14,207 nt of DNA from Rubrivirga sp. (lineage in GTDB: Bacteria; Bacteroidota; Rhodothermia; Rhodothermales; Rubricoccaceae). The position numbers and the translations under genes are program-made. Shown piece after piece: positions 3,176 to 11,573 of the stretch. The notes below the pieces were generated by a model, which was not told the DNA's origin, ran no database searches, and saw only the letters and a program-made list of their open reading frames with translations. The stretch lies in NCBI GenBank assembly GCA_012269805.1, contig JAAXJP010000295.1, positions 1 through 14,207 of the forward strand, written 5' to 3'. Within the stretch, counting starts at the first letter, position 1. Each line of letters begins with the position of its first letter.

Positions 3176-4024
3176 CTAGAGCTCGACTTCCAGGCCCTCC
3201 ATCGCGAGCCCGGTCTCGGCGAACCGCTCCCGGGCGAGGCCGCAGATCCGGCCCAGGGCGTCGTCGTCGTGCGACGGGTCGTGGTGGAACAGGAGCAGCC
3301 GGCCGACCTCGGCGCGCTCGGCGAGTGCCGTCGCGTGCTCCCAGGTCGTATGGCCCCAGCCCCGGCGGAGGGCGTACTCGTCGGGCGTGTACTGGGCGTC
3401 CGAGATGAGGAGGTCCGCCCCGTGGGCCACCTCGCGGAGGCCCTCGTCGTGGGCCGCCGAGCCGTGCTCGTAGTCCGTCGCGTAGACGACGGCCGCCCCG
3501 TCGACCTCGATCCGGAAGCCGTGGGCGCCCTGCGGGTGGTGGAGGGGGAACGGCCGGACGGTCATCGGGCCCACCTCGAACGGCTCGCCGTCGCGGACCC
3601 GGACCGTCTCGGTGGCCGCCGCGAGGTCGCCGAAGGGGACCGGGAAGTACGGCGTCGTCATCTGGCCCCGGAGCAAGGCGAGGAGCCGGTCGTCGTCGGT
3701 GGCGGCGTAGAACCGGACCGTCTGGCCCGGTGCGTAGAGCGGGGCGAAAAACGGGAGGCCCTGGAGGTGGTCCCAGTGGAAGTGCGAGAGGGCGAGGTGG
3801 ACCTCGCCGGGCTCGCCGGCGGCCTCGGCCGCGAGCGCGTAGCCGAGCCCCCGGATGCCGGTCCCCGCGTCGAGCACGAGCGCCGTTCCGTCGGCGGCGC
3901 GGATCTCGACGCACGCCGTGTTGCCGCCGACCCTCAGAAACCCGGCGTCGGGCGTGGGGATCGAGCCGCGGACGCCCCAGAAGCGGACGGTCAGGCGGGG
4001 GGACTCGGGGGTGGAGAGCGACAT
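3176..4024 (-). CDS. MBL-fold metallo-hydrolase
   Basis: This 282-residue metallo-beta-lactamase-fold protein carries the full two-metal set. HFHWDH (81-86) is the HxHxDH motif, HHPQ (162-165) follows beta-strand seven, D184 sits in ATDYEH, and the C-terminal HHDPSHDDD is at 247-255. The opening VRFWGVRGSIPTP (13-25) and GGNTACVEI mark the large RNase Z/PhnP-like subgroup of hydrolases of unknown substrate. These include candidate phosphodiesterases and nucleases. There is no signal peptide, so it is cytoplasmic. The frame runs far upstream, but I placed the start at the ATG at 4024 because the domain begins there and it lies 50 nt after the AI-2E gene stop. It is probably the last gene of a three-gene operon with the cyclic-nucleotide receptor, so a phosphodiesterase role is possible but unproven. 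Confidence 0.88.
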   Translation of the reverse strand: MSLSTPESPRLTVRFWGVRGSIPTPDAGFLRVGGNTACVEIRAADGTALVLDAGTGIRGLGYALAAEAAGEPGEVHLALSHFHWDHLQGLPFFAPLYAPGQTVRFYAATDDDRLLALLRGQMTTPYFPVPFGDLAAATETVRVRDGEPFEVGPMTVRPFPLHHPQGAHGFRIEVDGAAVVYATDYEHGSAAHDEGLREVAHGADLLISDAQYTPDEYALRRGWGHTTWEHATALAERAEVGRLLLFHHDPSHDDDALGRICGLARERFAETGLAMEGLEVEL

Positions 4025-4074: not shown

Positions 4075-5202
4075 CTAGAGATGGTAGCGGCGGAGTCCGA
4101 CGACGGTCTCTAGGAACACCACCTTCAGCACGGCCGCGGTCGGCACGCCGAGCGCCATCCCCATGATGCCGGCCACGCGGCCGCCGATGAGGATCGCCAG
4201 GAGCACCATGACCGGGTGCATCGAGACGTTCCTCCCCGTGATCCACGGCTGGAACACGACGTTCTCGGTCGTCTGCAGCACGACGAACAGGATGAGCACG
4301 GCGGCCACCTGCGACGTCCCCCCCGTCGTCACGATCGAGACGACGACGCAGAGGGTGGCCGAGACCACGAACCCGACGTACGGGACGAAGTTGGCGAGGC
4401 CCGTCACGAGCCCCAGCACGAGGTAGTAGTCGACGCCGAGGAGGGCGAGGCCGAGGGCCGTCGAGGCGCCGACGAGGACGGCGATGAAGGCCTGGCCCCG
4501 GAGGTAGCCGCCGAGGTGGGCGTCGGCCTTGTAGACGACCGTCATCCCGAACTCGAAGTACCGGTTCGGAACGACCGACAGGAGCCGCTTGCGGAGCGTC
4601 GGGCCGTCCTTCAAGAGGGCGAACAGGACGAACGGGACGATGAACGCGTTGCCCATCGTCTCGAGCGCGTCCGGGACGTAGCCGATGAGCGGGCCGGTGT
4701 CGGCGCGGATCGCCTCGCGCACGGAGGCGACGAGGCCGAGGTCGCTGGGCTCGACGAACCCGAGCTTCGAGGCCAGCGCGGCCTCCATGTCGCTCACGAG
4801 CCCGAGCAGCTCGCCGCTCTCCCACCGGGCCTGGAGCGAGCCGAGCTGGTCGAGCACGGCCGGCAGCGCGAGCGCGACGACGGCCCCCGTCACGGCGAGG
4901 AGGACGGCGAGGACGAGCGTCGTCGCCCGCGTCCGGCCCATCCCGCGCCGCTCGAGGCCGTTGACGAGCGGGACGAGGAGGTAGGCCGCGACGGCGCCGA
5001 GCACGATGAGCCCGGCGATGTCGCTGGCCACGACGACGAGGGCGACGACGCCCGCGAGCGTGAGGAGCCAGACCCAGCGGCTGAGCTGGCTGGCCGGGAC
5101 CGGGGCGGGCGCCGCGGGATCGGGCGGCCCGGGGACCGGCCGCGTAGACTTCGGGGGAGGGGTGGCCTCGACCGGGGGCGCCTCGGCGAGCGTCTCAGCC
5201 AT
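4075..5202 (-). CDS. AI-2E family transporter (PF01594-type permease)
   Basis: This is a 375-residue multi-pass inner-membrane protein. A Pro/Ala-rich cytoplasmic tail (1-40) leads into two helices (about 42-82), a third (about 94-117), a soluble segment with amphipathic helices (118-180), then five or so helices to the end. Family signatures are GGYLRGQAFIAVLVG (231-245), LANFVPYVGFVVS (269-281) and PWITGRNVSMHPVMVLLAIL (319-338), followed by GIMGMALGVPTAAVLKVV. The family includes E. coli TqsA (AI-2 export) and Na+/H+ antiporters, so the substrate cannot be named. Its ATG overlaps the stop of the upstream cyclic-nucleotide-binding gene by 8 nt, implying translational coupling and perhaps control of the permease by that receptor. 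Confidence 0.92.
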   Translation of the reverse strand: MAETLAEAPPVEATPPPKSTRPVPGPPDPAAPAPVPASQLSRWVWLLTLAGVVALVVVASDIAGLIVLGAVAAYLLVPLVNGLERRGMGRTRATTLVLAVLLAVTGAVVALALPAVLDQLGSLQARWESGELLGLVSDMEAALASKLGFVEPSDLGLVASVREAIRADTGPLIGYVPDALETMGNAFIVPFVLFALLKDGPTLRKRLLSVVPNRYFEFGMTVVYKADAHLGGYLRGQAFIAVLVGASTALGLALLGVDYYLVLGLVTGLANFVPYVGFVVSATLCVVVSIVTTGGTSQVAAVLILFVVLQTTENVVFQPWITGRNVSMHPVMVLLAILIGGRVAGIMGMALGVPTAAVLKVVFLETVVGLRRYHL

Positions 5203-5725
5203 CCCCGTCGGCGACGCCCGCGGCCTCGCGGAGCTCCTCGCACTCGCGCGTCAGCGCCTCGACCTCGTCCGAGACCTCGACGAGGCGGAGGCCCACGAGC
5301 CGCGCCAGCGACAGGAGCACCTTCACGCCGAGCCGGGGGTTCCGGTCGAGGAGGCTCAGGAGGTCCGGCTGGAACAGGCTGAGGAGCGTGCAGTCGGTCT
5401 TGGCCCGCGCCGTGGCCGTCCGGATCACCTCGTTGAGGAGGGCGATCTCGCCGAAAAAGTCGCCGTCGACGAGCTCGACGAGCTCGCGGCCGCTCGGCTC
5501 GGACTGGATCGAGACCGCGCCGCGGACGATGATGTACATCCCCAGGCCCGGCTCGCCCTGGATGAAGATGGACTCGCCCGCGACGTAGTCGCGGCGGTGG
5601 AGCAGCCGCTGGATGGCGTCGAGCTCGCGCGACGTGAGGTCCTCGAACAGGGGGACCGCCCCGAGGAGGTCGTCCTCGTTGGCGCCGGAGGCGCCGCCGA
5701 GCAGGCTCTTCCAGAGGCTTTGCAT
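5195..5725 (-). CDS. Single-domain cyclic-nucleotide-binding protein
   Basis: This 176-residue cytoplasmic protein has one cNMP-binding domain (about 25-145) and no DNA-binding helix-turn-helix, so it is not a CRP-type regulator. The beta-barrel shows LFEDLTSRELDAIQRLL, ESIFIQGEPGLGMYIIVRG and the phosphate-binding cassette FGEIALLNEVIRTATARA (91-108). The ribose-contacting Glu93 and phosphate-contacting Arg102 are both present. The residue after that Arg is Thr103, as in cGMP-dependent protein kinases, although R-T-A-T is also common in bacterial members. A short amphipathic N-terminus (MQSLWKSLLGG) and a C-terminal Glu-rich helix flank the domain. It is the first gene of the operon with the AI-2E permease (8-nt overlap) and the MBL hydrolase. 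It may gate the permease directly; this is inferred from linkage only. Confidence 0.88.
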   Translation of the reverse strand: MQSLWKSLLGGASGANEDDLLGAVPLFEDLTSRELDAIQRLLHRRDYVAGESIFIQGEPGLGMYIIVRGAVSIQSEPSGRELVELVDGDFFGEIALLNEVIRTATARAKTDCTLLSLFQPDLLSLLDRNPRLGVKVLLSLARLVGLRLVEVSDEVEALTRECEELREAAGVADGDG

Positions 5726-6597: not shown

Positions 6598-6614
6598 CCT
6601 GGCCTACTCCGCCG
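6587..6614. terminator. Hairpin spanning both convergent stop codons
   Basis: An 11-bp perfect stem (cggcggagtag 6587-6597 / ctactccgccg 6604-6614) has a 6-nt loop, cctggc. Each arm contains the last codons and TAG stop of one gene, so the whole 6-nt intergenic gap is the loop. There is no T tract. It is a candidate bidirectional transcription terminator or mRNA-end stabiliser built from coding sequence. Confidence 0.5.
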
Positions 6615-9600
6615 GCCCGCCTCGGCCCGCCGGTTCGGCGTCGAGGTCGACCGGCTCGGGGGCCCCTGCTGCGACCGGGAGCGCGACGTGGAACGTCGTG
6701 CCCTCGCCGTCGACGCTGTCGACGGACATCGACCCGTTGTGGACGCCCGTTACGATGTCGTGGGCGAGCGAGAGCCCGAGGCCGGTGCCCTCACCGGTCG
6801 GCTTCGTGGTGAAGAACGGCTCGAAGATCCGGCCCTTGACGGCGTCCGGGATCCCGGTCCCGTTGTCCTCGACGTCGATCCGAACGACGTCGCCGTCGCG
6901 GCGCGTGCGGAGGGTGACGGTGGGGGCGAAGCCGGGCTCGGCGCCCGCGGCCCGCTTCTGGACGGCGTGGAAGGCGTTCGTGAGCAGGTTGATGAGGACC
7001 CGCCCGAACTCCTGCGGCACGACCTCGACCTCGCCCGTGTCGTCGGCGAAGTCCTTCACGATCTCGACGTTGAAGTCGGAGTCGTTGGCCCGGGCGCCGT
7101 GGAAGGCGAGGTTGGCGTACTCGTCGATAAAGCGCGCGAGGTCGACGCGCCCGCGCTCCGACGAGCCGCCCCGGCTGTGGAGCAGCATCGAGCGGACGAT
7201 CCGGTCGGCCCGCTGGCCGTGCTCGCGGATCCGCCGGCAGTTTTCCTGGAGGTCGTCGATGAGGTCGCCGACCTCGTCGAGCACCTGGGCGGCCGGCTTG
7301 TCGGGCGCCTCGGTCATCTCGTCGCGGAGCTCCTGGGCCAGCTCGACCGAGAGGTCGGCGAAGTTGTTGACGAAGTTGAGCGGGTTCTTGATCTCGTGCG
7401 CGATCCCGGCCGTGAGCTGGCCGAGCGACGCGAGCTTCTCGCTCTGCACGAGCTGGGCCTGCGTCGCCTTCAGCTCACGGAGCGACGTCTCGAGTTGGCT
7501 GTTGGCCGCGGCCAGCTTGGCGTTGGCGGCCTCGACCTCGCGCGTGCGCTCGAGCTCGGCGGCCTTCCGCTCGTTCTCGGCCTTGAGCACGGCCGCCTCG
7601 GCGCGCTGGCGGTCGGCCTCGGCCGACGCCTTCCGCTGCTCGGCCTCGGCCGTCTCCGCCCGGAGCTCGGCCTCGCGCCGCTCGGCCCGCTCGCGCTCCT
7701 GACGGAGCAGCCGCGCCCGCTGCCACCGGTCGGCGCGGACGAGCGCGAACACGGCGAGCGCGGCGAAGCCGAGCAGCGCCCACCACGTCCGCCACCACGG
7801 CGGGTGGACCACCAGGTCGATCGTCGCGCTCTGGTCGCTCCAGACGCCGTCGGCGTTGGCGGCCTGGACCTCGAACGTGTAGCGGCCCGCGCCGAGGTCG
7901 GGGAACGTCACGTCGCGCCGGGTCCCGACCTCGTCCCACTCGTCGACGATGCCCGGCATCCGGTAGCGGTACGTGTTCTGCGCGGGGTCCGAAAAGTGGA
8001 GGCCGACGTACTCGATGGTGACGTAGCCCTCGTCGGGGCCGAGCTCGATCTCGTCGGCGACCGGCGCGGCCGCGTCCAGGATGTCGCCGTCCTCAGGTCC
8101 GACGGGTTGGCCGTTGACCTCGACGCCCGTGATCGCGACCTCCGGCGGGTTCGCGTTGCGCGCGGACAGGGTCTGGGGGTAGAAGGCGAGCAGGCCACGC
8201 TCGCTGCCGAAAAAGAGCTGGCCGTCCGGCGACCGCGCGGCGGCCCCGCTGAGGGCGCGCTCGGCGTCCTGGCCCTCGAGTCGCCGGTGGAACGTCTCGG
8301 TCACGGGCTCGAAGCGGGTGAGGCCGCCGCTCGTGCTGAGCCACAGGAACCCGGCGTCGTCCTCGACGATGGCGTAGACCGCGTCCCCTGGGAGGTCGGT
8401 CTCTTCGGCGGTGTACCGCGTGAGGCCAGCGCCCACGTCGCGGGTGTCGAGCCGGTGGAGGCCCCGGGGGGTCCCGACCCACAGGGAGCCGTTCGTGCGT
8501 GCGTGGAGCGAGAGGATGTCGTCGCTGGCGAGGCGCGTCGGCTCAGCGGGGTCGGCTCGGAGGCACACGAAGCGGGCCCCTTCGGCGGCGTCGCCGAGGC
8601 GGCAGAGGCCGGCGTCGGTGCCTGCCCAGAGCGCTCCGTCGGCGTCCTCGGCCAAGGCCCGGACGCGGTCGCTGCTGAGGCCGCTCGCCCCCCTGCGCAG
8701 GAACTCGGCCGTCCCCTCGGCCCGGTCATAGCGGACGAGGCCGTTCGCGAGCGTCCCGATCCAGAAGTCCCCTGCTTCTCGTTCAAGGATGGAGGCGATG
8801 GCGAACCGGGCGGGAGTCGGACCGGGCAGCGAGACACGTTGGATCTCGCCGTCGTCGTCGATCCGGTGGAGCCCGGCGCCCTCCGTGCCCACCCAGACGG
8901 TTCCCTCGCGGTCCTCGTAGAGCGCGCGGACGGGGTGCGCGTCGAGGTCATTGGCGTCCCCGATCCGTGTGTGCTCGAACGTCCGCCCGTCGGCGCTCCG
9001 GTCGAGCGTCTGGTCGGTGCCCACGTAGAGCATCCCGTCGCGGGCGGCCAGCACGGCGCGGACGTCGTTGCTCGCCAGCGACGCCGGGTCGTCGGTGTGC
9101 CGGAGGCGGACGGCCGTCCCGCGCGCTCGGTCGAACCGGTCGAGCCCGCCGTAGGTCGCGACCCAGAGGACCCCCTGGCGGTCCTCGTGGAGCGCCGACA
9201 CGTCGTCGTCGACCAGCGAGCTCGGGTCCTCGGCGACCGACCGGTAGATCCGAACGCCCTCGACGCCGGGCGTGAGGCGCCGGAGGCCGCCGGAGAGCGT
9301 GCCCACCCAGACCGTCCCGCTCGGGTCCTCGTGGACGTCGGTCACGTTCTGGGCGTTGATGTCGCCGCCGAGGTCGAGGCGGGCGAACGTCCCCGAGGCG
9401 GGGTCGAACGAGAGGAGCCCGTCGCCGAACGTGCCGAGCAGGAGGCTCCCGCGGCCGCTCGGCGTAATGGCCGTGACGGAGAACGCGCCCAACAGCGAGT
9501 CGGGGCGGACGGTCTGGAACGCGCCATCGCGGCGGCGGGCGAGGCCGTCGCCGGTGCCCACCCAGAGGTCGCCGCCGGACGTGAGGTAGAGCGCCTCGAC

Positions 9601-10161
9601 GACGTCGTCGGGCAGGCTGGCCCGGTCGGCCGCGTCGTGGCGCTCGACGGCGGCCACGGTCCCGTCGGCCTCGACGAAGGCCAGCCCGGCCGTCGTGCCT
9701 ACCCACACGTTGCCGGCCCCGTCGGCCTCGAGCGCGACGACGTCGTCGGCGGGGAGGCCCGAGATGCGGAGGAAGCGGTCGGTCGCCGGGTCGTAGCGGT
9801 TGAGGCCGGCGCCCGTCCCCACCCAGAGCGCGCCGCCCGCCGCCGGCTCCAGCACCTGGACCACGTTGCCGCTCAGCGACGTCGAGTCGGCCGTCCGGCG
9901 GTACTGGACCACCTCGTACCCGTCGTAGCGGACGAGGCCCTCGTCGGTCCCGGCCCACACGAAGCCGAGCGCGTCCTGCGTCACGTCGAGGACGGCGCTG
10001 CTCGGGAGGTCGTTCTCGACCGTGAGGTGGCGGAACGTGATCGCGTCGTCGTCCGGGAGCTCGGCGTCCGGCTGGGCCGCCACGAGGTCCGGCCCGAGAA
10101 CGGCGATCGACGCGAGAGTGGCCGCGGCGGCCGCGGCAGCGAGCAGGCGGAGGCGGCTCAC
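6604..10161 (-). CDS. Two-propeller (Reg_prop/Y_Y_Y) sensor histidine kinase
   Basis: This 1185-residue membrane kinase has a signal peptide (about 1-30, ending AAQ). Fourteen propeller repeats with the core LWVGT-x-x-GL-x-R-Y/F-D lie at about 66-662, enough for two seven-bladed beta-propellers. A Y_Y_Y domain (about 710-785, YVTIEYVGLHFSDPAQNTYR) and one transmembrane helix (about 789-808) follow. A long Glu/Arg/Ala coiled coil (810-905) leads to HisKA with phospho-acceptor His922 in GIAHEIKNPLNFVNNFADLS. The ATPase has an N box with Asn1062, a G1 box (DVEDNGTGIP, Asp1099), IFEPFFTTKP and GEGTGLGLS. Unlike Bacteroides hybrid systems it lacks a receiver or AraC domain; the receiver lies in the upstream gene. 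The GTG start at 10161 overlaps that gene's TGA by 4 nt (GTGA). The ligand is unknown; polysaccharide-derived ligands are known for relatives. Confidence 0.94.
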   Translation of the reverse strand: MSRLRLLAAAAAAATLASIAVLGPDLVAAQPDAELPDDDAITFRHLTVENDLPSSAVLDVTQDALGFVWAGTDEGLVRYDGYEVVQYRRTADSTSLSGNVVQVLEPAAGGALWVGTGAGLNRYDPATDRFLRISGLPADDVVALEADGAGNVWVGTTAGLAFVEADGTVAAVERHDAADRASLPDDVVEALYLTSGGDLWVGTGDGLARRRDGAFQTVRPDSLLGAFSVTAITPSGRGSLLLGTFGDGLLSFDPASGTFARLDLGGDINAQNVTDVHEDPSGTVWVGTLSGGLRRLTPGVEGVRIYRSVAEDPSSLVDDDVSALHEDRQGVLWVATYGGLDRFDRARGTAVRLRHTDDPASLASNDVRAVLAARDGMLYVGTDQTLDRSADGRTFEHTRIGDANDLDAHPVRALYEDREGTVWVGTEGAGLHRIDDDGEIQRVSLPGPTPARFAIASILEREAGDFWIGTLANGLVRYDRAEGTAEFLRRGASGLSSDRVRALAEDADGALWAGTDAGLCRLGDAAEGARFVCLRADPAEPTRLASDDILSLHARTNGSLWVGTPRGLHRLDTRDVGAGLTRYTAEETDLPGDAVYAIVEDDAGFLWLSTSGGLTRFEPVTETFHRRLEGQDAERALSGAAARSPDGQLFFGSERGLLAFYPQTLSARNANPPEVAITGVEVNGQPVGPEDGDILDAAAPVADEIELGPDEGYVTIEYVGLHFSDPAQNTYRYRMPGIVDEWDEVGTRRDVTFPDLGAGRYTFEVQAANADGVWSDQSATIDLVVHPPWWRTWWALLGFAALAVFALVRADRWQRARLLRQERERAERREAELRAETAEAEQRKASAEADRQRAEAAVLKAENERKAAELERTREVEAANAKLAAANSQLETSLRELKATQAQLVQSEKLASLGQLTAGIAHEIKNPLNFVNNFADLSVELAQELRDEMTEAPDKPAAQVLDEVGDLIDDLQENCRRIREHGQRADRIVRSMLLHSRGGSSERGRVDLARFIDEYANLAFHGARANDSDFNVEIVKDFADDTGEVEVVPQEFGRVLINLLTNAFHAVQKRAAGAEPGFAPTVTLRTRRDGDVVRIDVEDNGTGIPDAVKGRIFEPFFTTKPTGEGTGLGLSLAHDIVTGVHNGSMSVDSVDGEGTTFHVALPVAAGAPEPVDLDAEPAGRGGPAE

Positions 10162-11573
10162 GACAGGATCCGGGCGAACGCCTCGGTCGCGGCCGGCGGG
10201 ACGGACGAGAACCGGAGGTGGGCCTCGCAGCCCCCGTCCCCGGCGTCGACGACTTCCAGGACCTTCGCGTAGATCGTGGCCGGGCCGCCCTCGAGCTCGA
10301 ACGTCAGGCGGACGTCCGTCCGCGGGTCGATCTCGGTCCCGATCCTCGCGCGCGCGCCGGTCTGCGACAGCTCGACGACCTCGCCGGCGTGGTCGGCGTT
10401 CGTGATCTCCTTGCCGTCGAGGACCGCGAGGCCAAACGGGATCGGGTCGTCGATCGGCGCGAGGGCGTCCTCGTCGTGCGGCACGGTCCCCCCGTGCTCG
10501 CCCTCGACGCGCTCGACGCTGTGGATCGCGATGGGCTCGGCGAACCCCTTGAGCGAGACGCGCCGCGTGCCCTCCAGCTTGAGCGGTCCGCTCTCGCCGC
10601 CGGCCGCCTGATAGGTCGGGTCCGAGATGAGGACCTCGCCCGGCACCGCGAGGGTCTGGATCCGCGCGGTCAGGTTCACGGCGCTCCCCACGACGCCGTA
10701 CTTGGCGCGCTTCTCCGACCCGATCGTCCCGACGACGACCTCGCCCGAGTTCACGGCCGCCGTCATCTCGAGCGTCGGGAGACCGCGGGCCTCGAGCTCC
10801 TCGTTGACGGCGCCCATCCGGGACTGCATGGCCACGGCGCAGGCCGTCGCGCGCGTCGCGTGGTCCTCCATCTCGAGCGGGGCCCCGAAGATGACGAGGA
10901 CGGCGTCGCCGATAAACTCGTCGATGGCGCCCTCGTGCGCGTCGACCACCTCGGTCATCGCGCCGAGGTAGACGTTGAGGAGCTCGACGACCCGCTCGGG
11001 CTCCAGCCGCTCGGCGAGCTGGCTGAACCCGGAGATGTCGGACATCAGCACGGACACCTCGCGCTTCTCGCTCGACCCCGTCGCGTGGGGGTCGGCGAGG
11101 ACGGCCCGGGCGATCTTGTCGGAGAGGTAGCGCGTGATGGTCCGGCGGACGCGGTCGGCCTCGCGGTCGCGCTCGACGGCCTCGCGGGCCTGGGCGAGCG
11201 TGATCTGGAGGTCGTCCATGTCGATCGGCTTCGTGAGGAAGTCGAACGCGCCCTTGTTCATGGCCGTCCGGATGTTCTCCATGTCGCCGTAGGCCGTGAC
11301 CACGACGGCCCGCGTGCGCCGGCCGAGGTCGCCGAGCTCGCCGAGCAGCGTCAGCCCGTCCATCCGGGGCATGTTGATGTCGGTCACGACGACCTCGATG
11401 TCGGAGTCCTCTTGGAGGTGCTCGAGGGCCTCGACGCCATCGGAGGCGAACACGAGGGCGACCTCGCCGGACCGGACCTGCGACCGGAACTTCTGCCGGA
11501 TGAGCGGGACCAGGTCCGGCTCGTCGTCGACGAACAGGATCTTGATGGCCTCAGAAGGGGGCGCCTCGGACAT
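10158..11573 (-). CDS. Response regulator with class III nucleotidyl cyclase and PilZ-like domain
   Basis: This is a 471-residue cytoplasmic signalling protein. The receiver (about 9-130) has Asp16/Asp17, phospho-acceptor Asp65 in VTDINMPRMDG, Thr93 and Lys115. A linker helix leads to a class III cyclase (about 170-350) with metal-binding Asp179 (MSDISGFS) and Asp223 (FIGDAVLVIFG). The transition-state residues Asn300 and Arg304 lie in VVGSAVNLTARI, so the domain looks catalytically complete as a homodimer. Where adenylate cyclases have Lys (K-x-x-G-D) it has Glu219, and the usual Asp/Thr seven residues before Asn300 is Gly293, which favours GTP as substrate. The C-terminus (about 378-470; ELSQTGARARI, AHLRFSSVPPAATEAFARIL) resembles PilZ but lacks the RxxxR motif. 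The start is the ATG at 11573; the frame further upstream is non-coding-like. The 4-nt overlap with the kinase makes them a cognate pair. Confidence 0.9.
   Translation of the reverse strand: MSEAPPSEAIKILFVDDEPDLVPLIRQKFRSQVRSGEVALVFASDGVEALEHLQEDSDIEVVVTDINMPRMDGLTLLGELGDLGRRTRAVVVTAYGDMENIRTAMNKGAFDFLTKPIDMDDLQITLAQAREAVERDREADRVRRTITRYLSDKIARAVLADPHATGSSEKREVSVLMSDISGFSQLAERLEPERVVELLNVYLGAMTEVVDAHEGAIDEFIGDAVLVIFGAPLEMEDHATRATACAVAMQSRMGAVNEELEARGLPTLEMTAAVNSGEVVVGTIGSEKRAKYGVVGSAVNLTARIQTLAVPGEVLISDPTYQAAGGESGPLKLEGTRRVSLKGFAEPIAIHSVERVEGEHGGTVPHDEDALAPIDDPIPFGLAVLDGKEITNADHAGEVVELSQTGARARIGTEIDPRTDVRLTFELEGGPATIYAKVLEVVDAGDGGCEAHLRFSSVPPAATEAFARILS

Follow-up and report, generated by a model that had tools for sequence, protein, structure and literature searches.

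A predicted Cya2-class guanylate cyclase under phosphorylation control, with a PilZ-like tail, in Rubrivirga sp.

In a stretch of 14,207 nucleotides from the marine bacterium Rubrivirga sp. (contig JAAXJP010000295.1 of assembly GCA_012269805.1; "the window" hereafter), the gene at positions 11573..10158 of the minus strand very probably encodes a phosphorylation-controlled response-regulator guanylate cyclase of the Cya2 class, an enzyme predicted to make cyclic GMP (cGMP) under the control of a phosphorylated receiver. A preliminary description had placed a candidate guanylate cyclase at 10158..11573 without naming a strand; an open reading frame (ORF) of 471 amino acids is present at these coordinates, and it runs on the minus strand. 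A plus-strand gene at the same place was rejected as an open antisense frame in GC-rich DNA. To that description are added a PilZ-like C-terminal tail, a co-varying lysine at residue 291 and the gene neighbourhood. The domains, residues, fold, clade and gene order come from the sequence or from a structural model, and from them we infer the GTP preference, the phosphorylation, the activation and its direction, the role of the PilZ-like part and the receptor. The parts of the gene are as follows.

10158..11573, minus strand: receiver – class III cyclase – PilZ-like protein, 471 amino acids (ORF, Pfam, residue positions, tail scan)
11202..11540, minus strand: receiver domain, residues 12–124, phospho-acceptor D65 (Pfam PF00072, 3.3e-23)
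11070..11201, minus strand: linker helices, residues 125–168 (model helices 119–149 and 152–160; alignment)
10506..11069, minus strand: cyclase homology domain, residues 169–356
10917..10919, minus strand: codon of Glu219, predicted first purine-reading site, equivalent to Cya2 Glu488 (sequence and structural alignment)
10701..10703, minus strand: codon of Lys291, co-varying charge-swap partner (alignment counts)
10695..10697, minus strand: codon of Gly293, predicted second purine-reading site (alignment)
10161..10505, minus strand: C-terminal PilZ-fold domain, residues 357–471, without RxxxR (PF07238, model, PDB matches)

In the proposed mechanism, the sensor histidine kinase encoded next door would phosphorylate Asp65, and the phosphorylated receiver would shift the register of the linker helices (a putative transducer element) that lie between the protomers, so that both composite active sites of the dimeric cyclase would close and convert GTP to cGMP. 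The guanine edge would be read by Glu219, with the pocket completed by Lys291 and the small Gly293. The PilZ-like tail may be an integral part of the enzyme that sustains or adjusts its activity and no classical receptor of cyclic di-GMP (c-di-GMP), and a nearby cyclic-nucleotide-binding protein is the candidate cGMP receptor.

The Guanylate_cyc profile PF00211 spans residues 169–343 (4e-24, Pfam scan of the whole protein), and the marks of a class III cyclase, D179, D223, N300 and R304 together with the cyclase fold in the model, are all present. The phosphorylation set of the receiver is likewise complete, with the acidic pair D16/D17, the phospho-Asp D65, T93 and K115. The linker carries RYLSD, which reads FGRYLSD in many aligned relatives; an -FGRY- motif is named in PMC5995499 (here and below, papers are cited for those portions of their text that were available), and this linker is likely the cyclase transducer element. 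The protein is present in all nine genomes of Rubricoccaceae examined, where the L015 copy is broken off at residue 346 by a contig end, and the named close homologues belong to Rubrivirga, Rubricoccus marinus and Rubricoccaceae.

The residue numbers given in the preliminary description (D179, E219, D223, G293, N300, R304) proved exact. In an alignment of the protein with 120 homologues, residue 219 is Glu and both metal-binding positions are Asp in 121/121 rows, N300 and R304 are retained in the 120 readable rows, and residue 293 is Gly in 117, Ala in 3 and unreadable in 1. The homologues are the best 120 of 7526 matches among 8000 scored candidates and are therefore close kin and no independent sample; given their conservation, the purine-site residues of the window cyclase are not due to chance. 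Glu219 is paired with Lys291 in 172/172 readable rows (52/52 loci and 120/120 homologues, with one more row unreadable), and Lys219 with Asp or Glu at 291 in 36/42 rows; in a later, partly overlapping set of rows, the Glu–Lys pair occurs in 67/67 Glu rows. This charge swap suggests that positions 219 and 291 act together. In animal guanylyl cyclases, the residue equivalent to 291 is basic. Among 108 distinct cyclase domains from fetched loci, a collection found with the window protein, a small alignment of its kin or Cya2 as query and thus no census, the pairs at 219/293 are E/G in 45, K/T in 40 and Q/K in 8, followed by E/A in 4, E/S in 2, R/D in 2, and E/T, A/G, K/S, H/A, Q/G, Q/A and K/D once each. 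The Gln/Lys cyclases (L044 / L001 on contig C228 of the same genome, L022, L023, L024, L025, L027 and L029) form one seven-row group in the tree.

The kinship with Cya2 is evident from comparison with the PDB. The best PDB matches of the protein are an engineered Cya2 fusion (6fht) and Cya2 itself (2w01), both well ahead of the adenylyl cyclase CyaB; the cyclase domain is 45% identical to Cya2 over 197 aligned residues, and the model superposes on it at 1.2 Å. A Lys at the purine-contact site of a structural alignment had been named beforehand as grounds for abandoning the guanylate assignment; no Lys is there, the top match is Cya2, and E219 falls on Glu488. The resemblance to Cya2 that the preliminary description noted for Glu extends to both sites, as Glu and Gly are each identical in 2w01, and the E–G pair is named for Cya2 in PMC4215837. 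In the alignments, the purine site reads DEF in Cya2 and DKF in 6fht, and it has been reported that E488K converts Cya2 to an adenylate cyclase (PMC5995499).

The same grouping was found in a tree of 110 cyclase domains, built by a "quick" method with both purine columns removed and drawn with a midpoint root; it omits L015, L021, L108 and the minus-strand ORF of L083 and takes in only 4 of the listed homologue proteins. One branch, with a Shimodaira–Hasegawa-like approximate likelihood-ratio test (SH-aLRT) value of 99, holds 57 rows, of which 56 are Glu-type and one is the Ala/Gly row L161; Cya2 lies inside it, and the Lys-type, adenylate-cyclase-like rows lie apart. The window protein sits in an eight-row subgroup (SH-aLRT 96) with kin of its own family and order, and Glu versus not-Glu takes two changes on this tree. 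Branches are long for L161 and for several Lys-type rows, and the tree program gave a warning that long branches meet among these rows. The idea of an ordinary adenylate cyclase carrying a chance substitution was rejected, since close kin show no exception at Glu219 or Lys291 wherever these can be read, and support for the clade persists when the purine columns are taken out. L161, from the genome of the Myxococcales locus L080, has Ala, Gln and Gly at 219, 291 and 293, carries a PilZ-like tail and is possibly an inactive or altered-substrate variant.

The adjacent gene supplies the predicted input.

6604..10161, minus strand: probable cognate sensor histidine kinase (Reg_prop propeller, Y_Y_Y, HisKA, HATPase; signal peptide by eye)

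The two genes overlap in the sequence GTGA, which holds the kinase GTG start and the cyclase stop, and the kinase adjoins the cyclase in 7/7 other family loci that include this flank, L043 being broken by a contig end. In two other families of the order, a related kinase core lies near the cyclase orthologue: 43% identical and just upstream in L229, with TPR-like (tetratricopeptide-like) repeats by eye and a receiver-like stretch between, and 50% identical and about 2.5 kb downstream in L230. Phosphorylation control is thus plausible from the complete receiver and the overlapping kinase gene. That the cyclase is not the partner of this kinase, or is controlled without phosphorylation, is improbable in view of the overlap, the adjacency in those family loci and the two related cores, although the more distant loci L231–L234 show generic kinase matches or none near the cyclase, and input domains across the class include receiver, CHASE2 and Cache, with CHASE2 replacing the receiver in the cyanobacterial members scanned (L170, L190, L072). 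The gene row in L229 consists of the TPR-like kinase, the receiver-like stretch, the receiver–guanylate cyclase–PilZ protein and a protein with a receiver and a phosphatase-like domain, the last recognized by eye. Elsewhere in the Rubrivirga genome (L045 / L003, contig C221), a Reg_prop and Y_Y_Y-like sensor is apparently fused to a K/T, adenylate-type cyclase (domains by eye), which would make it a one-component counterpart of the kinase–guanylate cyclase pair in the window.

When the last 115 residues were scanned alone, PF07238 was matched at 9.5e-7 with 29.5 bits against a cut-off of 22.5; it is not listed in the whole-protein scan. The model and its PDB matches show the six-stranded barrel and C-terminal helix of a PilZ fold. 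PilZ domains that bind c-di-GMP are marked by RxxxR and D/NxSxxG motifs. The window tail is without RxxxR and has ELSQTG in place of the second motif, and a classical c-di-GMP PilZ receptor was rejected on this ground; among 169 tails, RxxxR occurs anywhere in the first 60 residues in 33, D/NxSxxG in 5, and both at PilZ spacing in 1. The tail occurs in 48/52 Glu-type rows and 0/42 Lys-type rows (27 of the 42 end too soon to hold it), and the same tail terminates Cya2 orthologues; the 118-amino-acid C-terminal extension of Cya2 is reported, in the text available, to be activity-boosting and structurally uncharacterised. It might be supposed that cGMP is made and that the tail is a ligand-gated switch, responding to c-di-GMP or another nucleotide and tying cGMP synthesis to c-di-GMP, since the fold is that of PilZ, the genome has two GGDEF matches and cross-talk from cGMP to c-di-GMP is described in Xanthomonas (PMC3770947). 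Against this stand the motif counts and a PF07238 match that begins only at profile position 22, and of the alternatives weighed here we hold this switch the least probable.

Several observations weigh against a guanylate cyclase of the kind proposed. Residue 293 varies to A, S or T within the Glu-type class. Residue 303 is Ala in the window protein where Cya2 has Tyr, and a Tyr beside the catalytic Arg raises guanylate cyclase activity in Cya2 (PMC4215837); Ala303 may lower GTP turnover or discrimination and is the main doubt. The GTP preference of Cya2 is moreover reported to act via turnover and not binding (PMC4284465), so that residue matching might not carry over fully. With regard to the tail, it is missing from three gammaproteobacterial Glu-type proteins, which have 10 (L078), 8 (L082) and 49 residues with no match (L081) in its place, and Cya2 cut back to its core keeps some activity according to the text available; the tail is therefore not essential everywhere. 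Finally, a receiver domain alone is no proof of phosphorylation by the adjacent kinase.

Ala303 bears most directly on the possibility of a dual-substrate or adenylate cyclase despite Glu219, in which the lack of Tyr303 would abolish discrimination and mainly cyclic AMP (cAMP) would be made in the cell, ATP being more abundant. Ma1120 engineered with the changes K to E, D to G and A to Y no longer distinguished ATP from GTP (PMC4215837), and the kinetic basis of specificity in the Cya2 class (PMC4284465) points the same way. However, no readable close homologue departs from Glu219 or Lys291, the genome already has a separate K/T adenylate-type cyclase, and the clade contains Cya2, in which E488K is what yields an adenylate cyclase; this alternative is accordingly considered about as unlikely as a cyclase unrelated to its neighbouring kinase. 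Tyr at site 303 occurs in 0/120 readable close homologues and in 32/52 Glu-type loci rows, so the window protein is a variant within the Cya2 class, Tyr303 being a feature of Cya2 that is not demonstrated as class-defining. The reading preferred here remains the response-regulator guanylate cyclase.

Further genes on the same strand include the candidate receptor.

5195..5725, minus strand: stand-alone cyclic-nucleotide-binding protein, 176 amino acids, candidate receptor (phosphate cassette Arg102–Thr103)
4075..5202, minus strand: AI-2E family transporter, overlapping the binding-protein gene
3176..4024, minus strand: metallo-beta-lactamase-fold hydrolase (top NCBIfam match "cyclic nucleotide-degrading phosphodiesterase", 70.5 bits against a cut-off of 400)

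The binding-protein gene lies 4.4 kb from the cyclase gene and its phosphate cassette is intact, residue 103 being Thr in 100 and Ser in 21 of 121 rows. Each of the nine family genomes has one match to it; the two genes are less than 8 kb apart in seven, whereas in G004 one contig carries both at a distance of about 3 Mb and in G001 they are on separate contigs. Within the genus, the binding protein is more conserved (99, 92 and 90%) than the nearby cyclase (95, 85 and 80%). The hydrolase, near the transporter and the binding protein, is matched in the three other loci of the genus.

The class extends over several phyla. In a sample of the same phylum, 24/296 genomes match at 1e-60, of which 19 carry Lys/Thr receiver-cyclases (L051–L069) and 5, including that of the window, carry the Glu type. 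A genome scan covering 80 of 451 relatives gave at least 13 Glu-type loci (L070–L082), in Acidobacteria, Cyanobacteria, Desulfobacteraceae, Deltaproteobacteria, Leptospiraceae, Myxococcales, Halieaceae, Gammaproteobacteria and Pseudohalioglobus. Bacterial cGMP synthesis had been called rare in the preliminary description; on the sequence side, Cya2-like cyclases are less rare than this implies, as matches over threshold were found in 54/386 genomes of a phylum sample around a cyanobacterium (Cya2 domain, 1e-60), 14/247 around a Desulfobacteraceae genome (window protein, 1e-55) and 5/198 around a Leptospiraceae genome (Cya2 domain, 1e-50). Glu was verified in fetched loci only, in 30/30, 21/22 (one Asp) and 4/4, respectively. 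Besides the window cyclase, the Rubrivirga genome encodes two others of class III, a K/T and a Q/K type; cAMP is therefore a probable product as well.

To our knowledge, Cya2 is the one tested member of this class. Published accounts call cGMP signalling in bacteria poorly understood and name few proven enzymes for it (PMC3770947, PMC4215837, PMC4284465), and a group of putative bacterial guanylate cyclases already appears in a figure legend of PMC2576301. In the literature consulted (titles and abstract openings, with few subscription papers), neither PilZ on a guanylate cyclase nor a bacterial receiver-guanylate cyclase was found described. We tentatively propose, with slightly less than even confidence, that bacterial cGMP synthases largely form one old, widespread class recognizable by Glu219 and Lys291, by a small residue at 293 and by a near-obligatory allosteric PilZ-like tail, that in Rubricoccaceae, Desulfobacterota, Acidobacteria and others two-component forms make cGMP subject to a sensor kinase, and that a conserved stand-alone cGMP receptor is encoded nearby in Rubricoccaceae. 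If probable guanylate cyclases in several phyla could be recognized by a simple signature in their sequence, a scattered question would open to direct tests, and the PilZ-like fold would give an identity to the unexplained activity-boosting end of Cya2. The Rubricoccaceae locus unites a sensor kinase, a predicted synthase and a candidate receptor.

Among known systems, Cya2 (sll0646 of Synechocystis PCC 6803, 2w01) shares with the window protein the E/G pair, the Lys two residues before the Gly, the clade and, in its orthologues, the homologous C-terminal domain; it differs in the Tyr at the position of Ala303 and in having a CHASE2 transmembrane sensor (from orthologue L170) instead of a receiver. 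The adenylate-type cyclases of the same phylum (L051–L069) likewise join a receiver to a class III cyclase at 38–41% identity, but all 19 have the Lys/Thr pair at the purine sites, and at most 28 residues follow the cyclase domain. The PilZ receptors of c-di-GMP (such as the CesA PilZ domain 4i86, YcgR and Alg44) differ from the window tail, which lacks RxxxR. XC_0250/XC_0249 of Xanthomonas campestris, compared by description only, similarly links cGMP synthesis to a cyclic-nucleotide-binding protein (PMC3770947); in the available text of that paper, the guanylate cyclase XC_0250 is described with tetratricopeptide repeats and without mention of a receiver, whereas the window cyclase has a receiver, and the Xanthomonas receptor carries GGDEF, whereas the receptor candidate of the window is a bare binding domain.
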